Assembly (NCBI GenBank): GCA_947630605.1
Contig: CANRIO010000003.1
Location: 1 to 60,147 of the forward strand
Direction: 5' to 3'
Length of the DNA stretch: 60,147 nucleotides
From: an uncultured Clostridia bacterium
GTDB taxonomy: Bacteria; Bacillota; Clostridia; Christensenellales; Borkfalkiaceae
Under the pieces are notes generated by a model. It saw nothing but the letters and a program-made list of their open reading frames with translations. It had not been told where the DNA came from and ran no database searches. Numbering within the stretch: the first letter of the stretch is position 1; each line of letters begins with the position of its first letter. Of the stretch, positions 13,541 to 60,147 are shown one piece after another. Both the position numbers and the translations under genes were made by a program.

Positions 13541-14530
13541 CTATTTCAGCCATCCCATGAAGGCCTTGAAGGCGGAGGGAACGGCAAAGTGTTCGCAAAT
13601 CTCCCGGACGGTCGCCCAGACATATTGCGGGTCCTCCTCCGTCTCGATGAGGTACCCCGTCATCTGCCATTCGACATGGGTAAAAATGTGCTTTGCACAT
13701 CTTTTTTCGAGGACCTTTCCGCGGGGAAGTTCTCCCCCGGCGGGGGCATTGGGGAACTCCCAAAGTCCCTCGAGAAGACCCGCGCCGCGTTTGCGCAGTG
13801 CAAAGCGATCCCCCGCGCGAAGGACAAAGACGTCGAGCGTCTCTCTTCTTCTCGGTTTCTTCTTTTCGCGGACGGGGAACTCCCCTTCCTTCCCCACAAG
13901 ATGCGCTCTGCAACAGCTCTCCCACGGACATGCCCCGCACATCGGCGGTCCGTTGGGCACGCAGACGATCGCGCCGAGCTCCATGAGCGCCTCCGTAAAA
14001 TCCGCCGTCTCGGGGGGATAGGCCTTCCGAAGCAGGTCGGAAAAATACTTTTTTGCGGAACTGTCATCGATATTTCTCCCGTCTGCGAAAAGGCGGGTCA
14101 GAATGCGGAGGACATTTCCGTCCACGGCGGGCTCTTTGAGCCCCAAGGCGATGGAGGAGATCGCGCCCGCGGTGTAGTCGCCCACCCCCGGCAACGCTCT
14201 TACCCCCACCCATGTCCGGGGTTCACCCCTCTCGGCGATGATCTTTGCGGCCTTATGTAAGTTGCGGGCACGGCTGTAATAGCCCAGCCCCTCCCAAAAT
14301 TTCAACACTTCGTCCTCGGAAGCGGCGGCAAGCATCTCCACCGACGGGAACCTCTCCAGAAAGCGCGTATACCGCTCCTTCACGGCCTCCACGCGCGTCT
14401 GCTGGAGCATGAGTTCGGAGAGGAGCACGCTGTAAAATGTGCGCTCTTTGCGCCACGGGAGGTCGCGCCTACATTTCCGATACCATGCAAGAAGGGGCCC
14501 GACCGCCCCCGAAAGGAGCTCCTCTTCCAT
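13541..14530 (-). CDS. mutY: A/G-specific adenine glycosylase
   Basis: RDLPWRKERTFYSVLLSELMLQQTRVEAV; ALPGVGDYTAGAISSIA; Cys cluster CVPNGPPMCGACPWESCC. Confidence 0.93.
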   Translation of the reverse strand: MEEELLSGAVGPLLAWYRKCRRDLPWRKERTFYSVLLSELMLQQTRVEAVKERYTRFLERFPSVEMLAAASEDEVLKFWEGLGYYSRARNLHKAAKIIAERGEPRTWVGVRALPGVGDYTAGAISSIALGLKEPAVDGNVLRILTRLFADGRNIDDSSAKKYFSDLLRKAYPPETADFTEALMELGAIVCVPNGPPMCGACPWESCCRAHLVGKEGEFPVREKKKPRRRETLDVFVLRAGDRFALRKRGAGLLEGLWEFPNAPAGGELPRGKVLEKRCAKHIFTHVEWQMTGYLIETEEDPQYVWATVREICEHFAVPSAFKAFMGWLK

Positions 14531-16194
14531 CAGAACAGCCCCACGATGTTGCCATCTTCGTCGAGGTCGATGCGCTCCGCGGCGGGCTCTTTGGGGAGCC
14601 CCGGCATCGTCATGATGTTGCCCGTCAGGGCGACGACGAAGCCTGCCCCCGCCGAAATTTTACAGCTCCTCACCGTGACGAAGAAATCCTCGGGCGCACC
14701 CAACATTTGCGGATCGTCCGAGAAAGAATACTGCGTCTTGGCGATGCAGACGGGGGTATTTCCGAAGCCGAGCTTCTCCAGCGCGGCGATCTCCTCCTCC
14801 GCCCCTGGGGTAAAGAGCGTCCCCTTGCCGCCGTAAACTTTTTTGACGACGGCGTCTATCTTCTCCTTGATGGGAAGCTCCGCGTCGTAGGCGAAGCGGA
14901 AATCCCCCTTCTCCTCCGTGAGGCGGATGACCTCCTTTGCGAGCGCCTCGCCCCCCTTGCCGCCCTCCGCCCAGACGGTGGAGAGCACGGCATTCACGCC
15001 GAGCGTCTTGCACTTTTCGATGACGAGGGCGATCTCCGCGTCCGTGTCCGTGGGGAAGCGGTTGACCGCGACGACGGCGGGAAGCCCATAGACGTCTTTG
15101 ATATTCGAAACATGCCGCAGAAGGTTGCAGAGCCCCCTCTCGAGTGCGGGAAGGTCCTCTTTGGCGAGTTCGCTCTTTGTCTTTCCGCCGTGCATCTTGA
15201 GGGCGCGCACGGTGGCAACGACGACGGCCGCGGAGGGAACGAGCCCCGCCATGCGGCACTTGATGTCGAAGAATTTCTCCGCGCCGAGGTCCGCGCCGAA
15301 GCCCGCTTCGGTGACCACATAGTCGCCGAGCTTCAGCGCCGCCACCGTCGCCGCGACGGAATTGCACCCGTGGGCGATGTTGGCAAAGGGTCCGCCGTGC
15401 ACGAGGGCGGGCGTGCCCTCCAAGGTCTGCACGAGGTTGGGCTTTATGGCGTCCTTCAGAAGGACGGCCATCGCCCCCGCCGCCTTGAGGTCCCCCGCCG
15501 TGACGGGCTTCCCCTCCCTGTTGTAGGCGACGACGATGCGGGAGAGGCGATTTTTCAGATCTTCGAGGGAGGTCGCAAGGCACAGAATGGCCATGACTTC
15601 GGAGGCGACGGTGATATCGAAGCCGTCCCTTCTCGGCACCCCCGACTTAAGCCCGCCGAGGCCGTCCTCCACATAGCGAAGCTGGCGGTCGTTCATGTCC
15701 ACGCACCGCTTCCAGACGATCCTCCCGAGGTCGATATCCAGTTCGTTCCCCTGAAAGATGTGGTTGTCGAGCATGGCGGCGAGGAGGTTGTTAGCCGCAC
15801 CCACAGCGTGGATATCCCCCGTAAAGTGCAAATTGATGTCCTCCATGGGGATGATCTGCGCATAGCCGCCCCCCGCCGCGCCCCCCTTGATGCCGAACAC
15901 GGGGCCGAGGGAGGGTTCGCGGAGCGCGACGACCGTTTTATTCCCGAGGCGGGAAAGGGCGTCCGCAAGGCCGACCGTCGTCGTCGTCTTTCCCTCTCCC
16001 GCGGGGGTGGGGGTGATGGCGGTGACGAGGATGAGCTTGCCCTTCGCCTTTTTCCCTTCGAGGGCGGCAGGGTGGATCTTTGCCTTATATTTGCCGTAAA
16101 ACTCGATGTCCTCTTCCCGGAGGCCGAGCTTTTGGGCGATATTTTCGATGGGGCGGATATTCGCCTCACGGGCGATCTCGATATCAGTCTTCAT
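14530..16194 (-). CDS. fhs: Formate--tetrahydrofolate ligase
   Basis: [54 protein letters not shown]. Confidence 0.96.
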
Positions 16195-16261: not shown

Positions 16262-19200
16262 TCAGCTTCGGAAATATTTGACCGCGCTTTCGAAGAGTTT
16301 CATGTTGAAAGCCGCCCCGATGTTGCGATACAGCCCGCCGAAGGAGACGGAGGAGCGGCCGAGACGGCCGAAGACCCTTCCGTCCGGAGAGAGGAGGCCC
16401 TCGACGGCGAGCGGGTTGGCAAAACTTCCCTCAAAGCCTCGGGCGGCGTTGCCCTCCCGATCGACGAACTGCGTCATGATCTGCCCGCTTTCCGCAAGTT
16501 TTTTTGCAACATTTGAGGGGCAGACGAGCCCGCCCGCGCCGCAGACGGGGATGCGGAACACATCGCCCGCATTCACCCCCGCAAGCCACGGGGAATCGGC
16601 GGAGGAAACGCGCACGCGCGCGATGCGATAGGCACTTTCCCCCGAGACGAACTTGGGCGCATCCTCTTCGGGAGGAGCAGGAGTGCCGTTCGGCAAGAGA
16701 CCGAGGCGCAGAAGGACGCCCATCCCGACGCCCTCGCCGCCGACAAGGCCCTCGCCGCTTCCGAGAAGCTCCGAAATGGCCGCAAACACCTCCTCATCCT
16801 GCATGAATTTTGCGATAAATTTGCTCAGACCGCAGACATGGTCCCCCTCGATGCCGTCCGCAAAGTATAAAATTCGGCTCTCGCGGATGCGTGCGGCAAG
16901 AAGGGACCGCTGCGCTTTCACCTCCTCGACGCCCCCTTCCGTGAGGGGGAAGCGTTCCACTTCGGCGCCCGTCCTCTCAAATGCCCGCGCGCTGTCCTCC
17001 GCGCCGTTCATCCCGCAAGCGACGGGCAGAAGAACGCGCGGCCTTTGGGTAGGAACGGCAACACTATAGTTGTTCTTTTTGAAATTTGTGACGTTTTCCG
17101 TCTCGCCTTCGGCGGCCCTGCGATCGGCCTCGGAAGGCGAACTTGTCCCGTCGGCGAGCCCTTTTAGCACGACGAGCGGCACGAGGTCGAGCCCGCGCGC
17201 GACCGTCTCCGAAAGGGTGGTGCGGCCGATCTCCTCCCCCACCTCCGTCTCGTCGTTGAGCTCGAGGATGAAGGCACCGTATTTAGGGGTAAAGACGCTC
17301 TCCGTGCGTACCATGTCCGAGAAGCGGAAGCCGATTTCATTGCCGAGACAGCAATTCAGCACCCCTTCCGCGATACCGCCGCTGCCGAGCGCATAGGCCG
17401 CGAGAACCTTGTCTACCCGCATGAGCGCGGTGACGATCTTGCAATTTTTGATGAGGGAATGGGGAATCGGCAGGCCGTCCTCGTCGCAGACGGGCGCAAG
17501 CAGGACGACCCTGTGCGACGCTCCCTTGAATTCGGGCGAGGAGACATCCCTCTCCGCCCCCTCCGCGGCCGCAACGGAGAGAAACGCCCCTTCCTCCCCC
17601 TCCGAAAAGAGAGCCTGCACGCAGCCTTTCGCGGGAATGCCGAGGTCGATCGCCGCCTTGCACGCGCCGAGCTCGGCCGCATACATCCCCTTAAATAGCC
17701 CGTTGTCGCGGGGAAGACAGGCCCTCGCATGAAGGCGGATATCTTCAAAGTCCGCCCCCGCCGCGATGAGCTTCGTAACGCTCTCGACCGCGGCAAAATA
17801 GGCCGCATGGAAGGGACTTCCCGCATGGAACTCTCCGCTCCGGGCGAGGTAGAGCGCTTCGCCCTCCCCCGTGCGGAATGCGGCAGCCTGCGGCGGCGTT
17901 GCGCTCATTTTTCCGCCGAAGGGAGCGAGCAGGGCATGCCCGCCGACGGCGAAGTCATACTTGGAAGAAAGGGTGCGCTGCAAGCGGAACCGCTTCTCTC
18001 CCGCGAGTGCGCGCATCCCCGCCGCGAAGTCGGTGGGAAGAACGCGTTCGGGAAGGCTCGGCTCCCCCGAAGGGATGGAAATGCTTCTTTCGGCACCGCC
18101 GCTCTTGAGGAAGGCGTGCGAGACGCTCGCGGCGATCTTCCCCGAAATACGCATTACAAGACGGGGGATCTCGGTGACCGTGGCGACAACGGCGGCCCTT
18201 AGCCCCGCCTCCTCGGCACGGGCAAGAAGGCCTTCCGCCTCCCGCGAACTTGTAAGAACTGCCGCCCCCCGCTGCTGGGCAAAGAGAGATGCGGCGGCAT
18301 CTTTTTGATAGAATGTAAGGACGGCGTCCACGTCCAAATCGACGCCGTCGGCAAGATCGGAGGCGGTGACGGCGACCCCTTTCCAAAGACGGGATGCCTC
18401 CTTCAGGGTGCCCGCGCTCCTCTCTTCGCGCAGAAGACGGCGGAGCGTTTCCCCAAATTCATCCTCATCGACAAGGAGGATCTTGTCGCCCGGGACGGCC
18501 GCGGCCGCGCCCTCCTCTTGCTCCCTCGCAAGATAGAGGTCGAAACTTCTGTCATGCTTGCCGCCGCCAAGGACGGTGACGCCGCCCATCGCGATCCCGG
18601 CCTCGAAGAGGCGTTTCCCCTCCCGCTCGGCAGAAAGTTCGCGCGCCTTGTTTTTTGCGGGGTCATCCCCCGTCTCCCCCGCGGCCAGCATCTTCATCGC
18701 CCCGAAGGGAGTGGAGAAGAGCGGATCCGTATAGGAAAGGGCAAACCCGTCGCTCTTCTTTTCGCCCTCTTCCCCCTTTTCGGCGCGACCTTCCGCCAGC
18801 CGTTCGGGAAGATCGGAAAGGGAAAGCAGGGTCATGGGGCCCTCTTCGCCGAGCTCCTCCCGGGCAAGCGCGCACGCTTCTTCGGCGCGGCCGAGAAGGC
18901 CCTCTTTGGCCCCCTCGATCGGGGAGGAGAGCGCAAAGGGCGTGTGGCGGTAGAATTCGTCGAAAAAGCGCAGTTCCGTCTCCGTCGGGTCGCGGTATTC
19001 CGACTTGAAATACTCCTGCACGCAGACAAGCTCGGGGGCACCCATGTCGAAGGCAAATTGCTCTTTGAGCGCTTCGAGGCCACCCATGTCCAAATCACGG
19101 AAGCCTGCAAGAGGCTCGGAGCCCAATGCGGACATGGGTACCTCCTTTGTTTGAGGAGCAAGGAGGGAGAGGCTTGCCTCGCGCATGTTTTGCCCCGAAA

Positions 19201-19582
19201 GGACGAAGCGCTTGATGGCGGAAAGCTCCTCCTCCGAGATCTCCCCGTAGAGCGCGTAGAGCTTGGCAAAACGCACCTTTTCCCCGCTTCCGCCAAAATA
19301 TGACTGCTTAAAGCGAAGGAGTGCGGCTCCCTCGTCCGTGAAAAGCGGCTCCGCGGCGAACACCCTCGCTCCGGCAAGATCGGCATGCACCTTAAAAGTC
19401 GCCGTACTGTCCGAGAAAAGCTCTGCGGCCTGAAAGACTTCCTCGCTCTCGATGTCGTAGCGATAGAGGATGCGGACGCTCTTCACCGAGGCGATCTTGA
19501 GCACGGAGAGAATGTCTCTATGGAGCGACTCCGCTTCGCGGTCGCACAGTTGTTTTTTCTCTGCATAAAATCGGCGTATCAT
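16262..19582 (-). CDS. Divergent phosphoribosylformylglycinamidine-synthase-like protein, probable pseudoenzyme
   Basis: FGAMS-like N-terminus (MIRRFYAEKK...VRILYRYDIESEE) and C-terminus (VEGLLSPDGRVFGRLGR...KLFESAVKYF), but recognisable catalytic motifs are missing or altered. Confidence 0.8.
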   Translation of the reverse strand: MIRRFYAEKKQLCDREAESLHRDILSVLKIASVKSVRILYRYDIESEEVFQAAELFSDSTATFKVHADLAGARVFAAEPLFTDEGAALLRFKQSYFGGSGEKVRFAKLYALYGEISEEELSAIKRFVLSGQNMREASLSLLAPQTKEVPMSALGSEPLAGFRDLDMGGLEALKEQFAFDMGAPELVCVQEYFKSEYRDPTETELRFFDEFYRHTPFALSSPIEGAKEGLLGRAEEACALAREELGEEGPMTLLSLSDLPERLAEGRAEKGEEGEKKSDGFALSYTDPLFSTPFGAMKMLAAGETGDDPAKNKARELSAEREGKRLFEAGIAMGGVTVLGGGKHDRSFDLYLAREQEEGAAAAVPGDKILLVDEDEFGETLRRLLREERSAGTLKEASRLWKGVAVTASDLADGVDLDVDAVLTFYQKDAAASLFAQQRGAAVLTSSREAEGLLARAEEAGLRAAVVATVTEIPRLVMRISGKIAASVSHAFLKSGGAERSISIPSGEPSLPERVLPTDFAAGMRALAGEKRFRLQRTLSSKYDFAVGGHALLAPFGGKMSATPPQAAAFRTGEGEALYLARSGEFHAGSPFHAAYFAAVESVTKLIAAGADFEDIRLHARACLPRDNGLFKGMYAAELGACKAAIDLGIPAKGCVQALFSEGEEGAFLSVAAAEGAERDVSSPEFKGASHRVVLLAPVCDEDGLPIPHSLIKNCKIVTALMRVDKVLAAYALGSGGIAEGVLNCCLGNEIGFRFSDMVRTESVFTPKYGAFILELNDETEVGEEIGRTTLSETVARGLDLVPLVVLKGLADGTSSPSEADRRAAEGETENVTNFKKNNYSVAVPTQRPRVLLPVACGMNGAEDSARAFERTGAEVERFPLTEGGVEEVKAQRSLLAARIRESRILYFADGIEGDHVCGLSKFIAKFMQDEEVFAAISELLGSGEGLVGGEGVGMGVLLRLGLLPNGTPAPPEEDAPKFVSGESAYRIARVRVSSADSPWLAGVNAGDVFRIPVCGAGGLVCPSNVAKKLAESGQIMTQFVDREGNAARGFEGSFANPLAVEGLLSPDGRVFGRLGRSSVSFGGLYRNIGAAFNMKLFESAVKYFRS

Positions 19583-19649
19583 GAGTTCCTCCCCGGGTGC
19601 AAGCGTCCCAAATCCGACAAATGAATTTCAACCATATTATAATATAAAA

Positions 19650-19674
19650 GCAGGTTGACCGTCAAGCAACCTGC
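19650..19674. promoter_or_regulatory. Inverted repeat overlapping the -35 of the 16262-19582 gene
   Basis: GCAGGTTG-9-CAACCTGC; minus strand reads TTGACG...TATAAT through it. Confidence 0.5.
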
Positions 19675-20188: not shown

Positions 20189-21091
20189 TCATCTCTGGTT
20201 GAATTTTTTGCGGACGAACCAGTCGGTGACGCGCTCGGGGAGCATCTTATTCACATAGCGGAGGAAGTTGTACTTCCCGTTGACCGAGGAGACGGGGGGC
20301 GGGTTGCGCTTTGCGGAGAGCTTCAAAACGGCCTCCGCGACGAGCGAGGGGCTCATCCCCCCCTGTTCCATGTTGGCGAGTGCGGCCGAGGCCTTCTTCA
20401 CCGAGGGGGAATAGCCGAGGCTCTCCTCCTCGCCGTACACCCTCCTGTTATAGGTAAAGTCCGTTGCCGTGCCCGCGGGAAGGAGCGCGCTCACCCGCAC
20501 ACCGTAGGGGCGGAGCTCCATATCCGCCTCGCGTGCGAGCATCGAAAGGGCGGCCTTGGAGGAGGAATAGAAGCTATCGTAGGGAATGGGCATGTCGCCG
20601 CCAAGTGAGCCGACGAGGATCGCCCTTCCCCCTCTCCTCTTCAAAAAGGGCGCCGCCGCGCGGAGGGCCTCCACCGCGCCGAAGTAGTTGACCTCAAAGA
20701 GATACCGATAGTCCCCGCTCTTGGCGTACTCGATGGGTGCGGTCATGGAAAAGCCCGCCGAGTAGACAAAGAGGTCGATGGCCCCGGCCTCGTCGCCCGC
20801 GCTCTTCACGGCCTGCGCGATCTCCCCCTCGAGGGCGGCATCTGCGGAAAAGCTCTTGATACGGTCCCCCTTGAAGGGCGTGCGCGAAACGTTGTAGACG
20901 CGGTACCCCTTCGAGAGCAGCCGAAGGGCGGTCTCCCGCCCGATCCCCGAGGAGCCGCCGACGACAACTGCAGTGCGTCTTGCGGACATGGTATGCTCGT
21001 AATGCGTCGAGGCAGGTTTTTCTTCCTGTTTTTTCTCCGCCGTTTTTTTCTTCTCCTCTTCATCGAGAGGCAAATTCTTTTCCTGTTTCAT
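20189..21091 (-). CDS. SDR-family NAD(P)-dependent oxidoreductase
   Basis: TAVVVGGSSGIGRETALRLLSKGYRV (GxxxGxG); S...Y(D)SFYSSSKAAL; internal start at 20989 possible. Confidence 0.88.
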   Translation of the reverse strand: MKQEKNLPLDEEEKKKTAEKKQEEKPASTHYEHTMSARRTAVVVGGSSGIGRETALRLLSKGYRVYNVSRTPFKGDRIKSFSADAALEGEIAQAVKSAGDEAGAIDLFVYSAGFSMTAPIEYAKSGDYRYLFEVNYFGAVEALRAAAPFLKRRGGRAILVGSLGGDMPIPYDSFYSSSKAALSMLAREADMELRPYGVRVSALLPAGTATDFTYNRRVYGEEESLGYSPSVKKASAALANMEQGGMSPSLVAEAVLKLSAKRNPPPVSSVNGKYNFLRYVNKMLPERVTDWFVRKKFNQR

Positions 21092-60075: not shown

Positions 60076-60147
60076 TGGCTGCTCCTGTCAGACTCGAACT
60101 GACGACACCGCGGTTAACAGCCGCGTGCTCTACCGACTGAGCTAAGG
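60076..60147 (-). tRNA. tRNA-Asn (anticodon GTT), 5' end truncated by window edge
   Basis: Minus strand CCTTAGCTCAGTCGGTAGAGCACGCGGCTGTTAACCGCGGTGTCGTCAGTTCGAGTCTGACAGGAGCAGCCA. Confidence 0.93.

Follow-up and report, generated by a model that had tools for sequence, protein, structure and literature searches.

The window, which here means the whole 60,147-nucleotide stretch of DNA that was analyzed (contig CANRIO010000003.1 of an uncultured Clostridia bacterium, genome G000), carries on its minus strand a full-length, catalytically dead homologue of PurL, the FGAM synthase (16262..19582). The frame runs uninterrupted from an ATG at 19582 to a stop at 16262 and encodes 1106 amino acids; its assignment is based on the open frame, the TIGR01857 profile, the motif losses and the dN/dS against the sister species G258. 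Its codon-position G+C (0.67/0.47/0.73) matches that of the neighbor genes. Downstream on the same strand lie fhs (14530..16194) and mutY (13541..14530), both recognized by synteny as ancestral neighbors, and upstream an SDR-family gene (20189..21091, minus strand, PF00106). The dead purL is preceded by a promoter-like site, TTGACGGTCAACCTGCTTTTATATTATAAT (19636..19665, minus strand), which matches the consensus (TTGACG-TATAAT) and is identical in G258, and by a Shine-Dalgarno-like GGGGAGG (19588..19594, minus strand) that reads GAGGAGG in G258. The ~90 bases before the ATG, including both sites, are largely conserved between the two genomes, and the intergenic DNA further upstream aligns poorly. 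An inverted repeat, GCAGGTTG-N9-CAACCTGC, spans the -35 box (19650..19674, minus strand), is the same in G258 and is a possible operator; its arms resemble the arms of the pur leader hairpins of relatives. The fhs gene has its own promoter-like site (16231-16202, minus strand), also found in G258. A search for structured RNA before the dead purL gave no Rfam match except tRNAs; a tRNA match at 60079-60147 is cut by the window end.

The window PurL scores 435.8 bits against TIGR01857, the profile of the long clostridial PurL (FGAM synthase), far under the curated family cut-off of 1057 bits. The sole Pfam domain recognized in it is GATase_5 (PF13507, 95 bits), a glutaminase-like domain at residues 846-1106 (16265..17047, minus strand) whose catalytic Cys and His are gone. 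The protein is ~120 amino acids shorter than the long-form clostridial PurL and its identity to the canonical PurL of the same genus is mostly 36-40%. In the alignment with these canonical sequences, YWSDHCRHTTF has become FYR----HTPF, ETHNHPTEIEPFGGAATCIGG and GGRTGRDGCGGATGSSK are deleted, and the GRDG synthetase motif is deleted or replaced; HCRHT, ETHNHP...GGAATC, GRDGCGGATGSSK and GKDSMSG being deleted or unrecognizable, the FGAM-synthetase site is lost. On the glutaminase side, GGICNGF reads GGEGVGM, with Gly in place of the nucleophile Cys, SHGEG reads C-GAG, without the His, and MGHSER reads LGRSSV. The motif losses listed by the first-pass annotation are therefore confirmed, and the catalytic residues do not reappear when the protein is aligned with near relatives. 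The protein thus departs from active FGAM synthases in its score, its synthetase motifs and its glutaminase Cys and His. Judged from its sequence, the ORF is an intact descendant of the long clostridial PurL that has lost its catalytic residues. The annotation had also described an FGAMS-like framework from end to end, and the AlphaFold model (pLDDT 76, pTM 0.71) agrees, as the whole FGAR-AT fold is predicted to be present. In fold searches the model matched 1T3T (StPurL; Foldseek E 1.3e-41, TMq 0.68), human PFAS 9nb3 (E 3.9e-44) and gammaherpesvirus FGARAT-like tegument proteins. The modeled full-length fold would place the protein in the FGAR-AT fold family. A sequence search of PDB chains with the window PurL (P0001) gave no match, whereas the fold search did.

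G258, another MAG of an uncultured Clostridia whose isolate name (Lapin) suggests rabbit, encodes the same dead PurL, with 77% identity and no gaps across the 1106 codons. The dN/dS between the two genes is 0.288 by the NG86 method. Our purpose-written GY94 maximum likelihood fit gave 0.22 when 15 codons before the ATG were included (2dlnL = 249.5 versus omega 1) and 0.21 for exactly the 1106 codons (2dlnL = 260.9 versus omega 1), the tip branches having omegas of 0.16 and 0.27. Neutral divergence of 0.25 substitutions per site should have left ~16 stops in purL, and none is observed. Since the catalytic losses are common to both lineages, the constraint acted after catalysis was gone. Purifying selection following the loss of catalytic residues is as expected of a pseudoenzyme, and neither the broken frame nor the neutral evolution of a pseudogene is found here. 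The earlier argument that an open 1106-residue frame speaks against simple decay is strengthened by this selection, by the gapless alignment with G258 and by the conservation of the promoter and ribosome sites. The omega of dead copies (~0.15-0.27) is higher than that of canonical PurL (~0.05; 0.045-0.054 in four pairs), which indicates that constraint has been relaxed relative to the canonical enzyme; the GY94 values left out are the saturated G123-G237 pair and the domain values of G042-G268.

This constraint is unevenly distributed. In canonical pairs the strongest constraint falls on the A1 subdomain, which holds the active site (omega 0.005-0.027); in G000/G258 this subdomain is the least constrained one (omega 0.244). 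In the latter pair the tightest part is B2 (residues ~681-800, approximately 17183..17542, minus strand), with an identity of 0.92 and an omega of 0.075 (LRT 8.1 versus the whole protein, one test among seven domains). The order of constraint is thus reversed. B2 is also constrained in the pair formed by the dead copy of G185 and the intact one of G238 (omega 0.027, LRT 11.4), where the N-terminal estimate is lower still; the shift is absent from the domain omegas of G209 and G230. Near-invariant residues of canonical PurL are retained at 84-100% in B2 and 13-39% in A1 among the dead copies without G230, and G000 and G258 keep 84-88% of those in B2. In StPurL, domain 2 (A2 + B2) holds an auxiliary ADP site of unknown function (PMC3815217).

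The loss of catalysis is accompanied by the loss of the pathway. The window genome (MAG 74% complete) yielded no second PurL, and the genomes of G123 and G042 (both 99% complete) have one PurL copy each, which is dead. Queries with PurF, PurM, PurD and AICARFT, and then with PurC, PurN, PurO and PurE together with parts of PurF, PurD and PurM, detected none of these genes in G000, G258, G123, G237, G042 and G185. The matches in these genomes were confined to the N-terminal GlmS-like part of PurF (31-37% identity) and a weak PurN match in G042, which is read as another formyltransferase. Intact relatives were positive with the first query set (G105, G140, G027 and G145) and with the second (G075, G268 and G238). 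With the second query set, the only one applied to them, G209 gave no match and G230 retains a piece of purD (67% identity). G237 is 66% complete, but the completeness of G123 and G042 means that the absence of the pathway there is not an assembly gap. In the intact G027 the order is SDR-purE-purC-purF-purM-purN-purO-AICARFT-purD-purL-fhs-mutY (purE being assigned from its position and the annotation of its neighbors), and the window, G042 and G209 have SDR-dead purL-fhs-mutY. The SDR gene lies beyond the lost purE-purD segment. Its neighbor is purE in G027, dead purL in G258, G237, G042 and G209, and fhs in many genomes without purL. In many such relatives fhs and mutY come after SDR, and tblastn revealed no purL remnants in these species. 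The first-pass annotation had taken the adjacency of fhs (formyl-THF supply) as a functional clue. This proved misleading: purL-fhs-mutY is the ancestral pur operon order and purL-less species keep fhs in that place, so that a functional link with fhs was rejected as ancestral synteny.

Some variants of this region are worth recording. In G258, G123 and G237, but not in the window, the dead purL and fhs are separated by a small lipoprotein-like gene (L065:11752-12630, L066:7762-8568, L067:2961-3851; the G258 copy has no Pfam match). Between purL and fhs, G185 has one gene (L070:4325-6271) and G238 two (L078:2353-7720), which are related; the intervening protein of G185 has TPR, TIR and BspA-type leucine-rich repeat domains. 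G241 retains AICARFT and purO beside fhs (L189:9226-11122) with no match for purL, purF, purM or purD, and these two enzymes perhaps recycle AICAR from histidine synthesis. The pur operons of the genus share a leader before purE: a TTGAC-TATAAT promoter, an ATG a few bases past the -10 box, a hairpin of the type GGCAGGTTTTTTCGC-TAGAAAAAACCTGCC and a stretch rich in T. This leader occurs at L075:830-980, at L069:7590-7780 and before the purE of L219, L220, L221, L223, L224 and L225; it could be an attenuator, and the leaders in L075 and L069 have no Rfam match.

Dead copies make up eight of the 66 sequences in the PurL tree of the genus (G000, G258, G237, G123, G042, G185, G209 and G230), the first four of which form one clade, hereafter the window clade. 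This tree requires four changes, three of them forced by strongly supported branches, some placements being unsure because of long branches. The RpoB tree, without G258 and G237, also requires four changes and forces three. It places G185 beside G238, G042 beside G268, G209 with G230 and G000 with G123; some of its rows are long or partial (G084, G024, G247; G000, G230, G244), so only well-supported placements were used. By both phylogenies, purL became an orphan dead gene at least three times, and probably four times, in the genus. Dead copies outside the genus were also sought, and the 12 genomes of other genera that were rechecked (10 without a match over the cut-off) yielded mostly partial pieces, apparently fragments at contig edges; a dead copy could be demonstrated in none of these 12.

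The synthetase motifs are absent from all dead copies, which are at different stages. G230 looks early, with point changes and short deletions, and the window clade is the most advanced. The fraction of changed positions in synthetase motifs versus canonical-variable positions, which partly reflects deletions spanning several columns, is 0.89 versus 0.41 in G209, 0.79 versus 0.40 in G185 and 0.91 versus 0.63 in G042, and is about equal in G230 (0.42 versus 0.40). The glutaminase motifs are almost intact in G042 (0/12 positions changed), G185 (1/12) and G230 (1/12). The nucleophile Cys is retained in G042 and G185 and is Gly in the window clade, G209 and G230; the His and MGHSER are also lost in the window clade. 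Among the dead copies examined, a premature stop occurs in G123 alone, near the C-terminus, and removes the last part of the protein. TTGAC-TATAAT sites precede all dead copies except that of G230, where the upstream DNA lies beyond the contig end, and the dead purL of G042 retains a hairpin leader resembling the purE leader of intact operons. Together, these observations suggest that purL came to lie behind the operon promoter through the loss of purE-purD, which may also hold for the lineages other than G042.

We consider an exapted pseudoenzyme to be the likely best explanation of the window PurL. An ancestor would have lost de novo purine synthesis with the purE-to-purD segment, and purL, the last gene, would have remained immediately behind a promoter, probably that of the old operon. 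With neither substrate nor partner enzymes, the FGAM-synthetase site would have been dismantled, as would the glutaminase site in the window clade, and the full-length fold, above all B2, would have been kept by selection for a non-catalytic task. The dead PurL might then bind a ligand or a partner, for instance via the A2/B2 half of domain 2, as a regulator or scaffold. That the protein is non-catalytic and selected is very likely; that domain 2 makes it a ligand-binding regulator or scaffold is a more tentative proposal. Of the pseudoenzyme with a regulatory or binding role envisaged in the annotation, the first half is upheld by selection, frame, promoter and fold, and the role is one that we infer. 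Since many relatives lack purL, this function is dispensable in the genus.

The main competing view is that of a slowly decaying pseudogene, left over from the purine operon, that stays open by chance or has not yet been deleted. The missing pathway, the omega above that of canonical copies, the truncated G123, the early stage seen in G230 and the loss of the whole cluster in many relatives would all fit. Nevertheless, an omega of 0.21-0.22, with a 2dlnL of ~250-260 versus neutrality after the shared catalytic loss, the absence of gaps and stops in 1106 codons and the conserved promoter make it unlikely. Alternatively, the protein could still be an enzyme with altered chemistry, such as a glutaminase or amidotransferase with a new substrate, as might be suspected from the nucleophile Cys and the glutaminase motifs of G042 and G185 (12/12 and 11/12 positions kept). 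Yet this Cys is Gly in the other dead copies, the window clade also lacks the His and MGHSER, the motifs on the ATP/FGAR side are lost everywhere and no replacement motif was noticed, short of a systematic search, so that we regard this possibility as very unlikely.

The frame could also be kept just for its neighbors, through polarity or coupling to the fhs gene directly downstream, or for the harmless folding of an expressed but useless protein. Replacing active-site residues can stabilize a fold, and the speed at which the synthetase site was lost would be compatible with such stabilization. Nevertheless, the promoter-like site that fhs has of its own in the window and G258 weakens the polarity argument, many species have SDR-fhs without purL, and polarity puts no constraint on amino acids. 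If an expressed protein were useless, loss of the promoter or an early stop would silence it sooner, and here both promoter and frame are kept; this last explanation seems highly improbable. A broader hypothesis than the exapted pseudoenzyme, about which we have some doubts, is that the PurL of the genus has a second, catalysis-independent function predating pathway loss. In that case purL would have been repeatedly retained while its synthetase site was dismantled and constraint moved to B2 in some lineages, so that pseudo-FGARATs would have emerged recurrently in bacteria, in parallel with the gammaherpesvirus ones.

The order of the genes, the missing pathway, the conserved promoter and the selection seen in the codons agree that the enzyme outlived its reaction. 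They suggest that a gut bacterium without the purine pathway retains a dead PurL under selection for another job. Since the genus includes species in which purL is intact, recently inactivated, long inactivated or deleted, the birth of a pseudoenzyme is directly testable there, as is a hidden second role of PurL. A search of the open-licence literature, by title and abstract for PurL moonlighting, found no bacterial pseudo-FGARAT or pseudo-PurL.

The window PurL resembles the long-form clostridial PurL (TIGR01857; 1T3T fold) in descent, domain order, full-length modeled fold and adjacency to fhs-mutY. It differs in its missing synthetase and glutaminase residues, its shorter length and the lack of any other detected de novo purine gene. 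The same pathway genes are missing as in the ordinary pathway loss of purL-less species of the genus, but that process removes genes, whereas here one gene is kept open and under selection. The closest precedent in kind is that of the gammaherpesvirus ORF75/vGAT proteins, FGARAT pseudoenzymes without the catalytic triad that are kept for a non-metabolic role (PMC6213852) and are, like the window PurL, full-length FGARAT-like proteins without catalytic residues. The viral proteins recruit the active host PFAS, whereas the window PurL is a bacterial descendant in a genome where no active PurL was found (MAG 74% complete); a vGAT-like mode, in which an active FGARAT is recruited to a target protein, therefore looks unlikely. 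The window PurL is a bacterial instance, probably a recurrent one, of a pseudo-FGARAT kept after the loss of its pathway.
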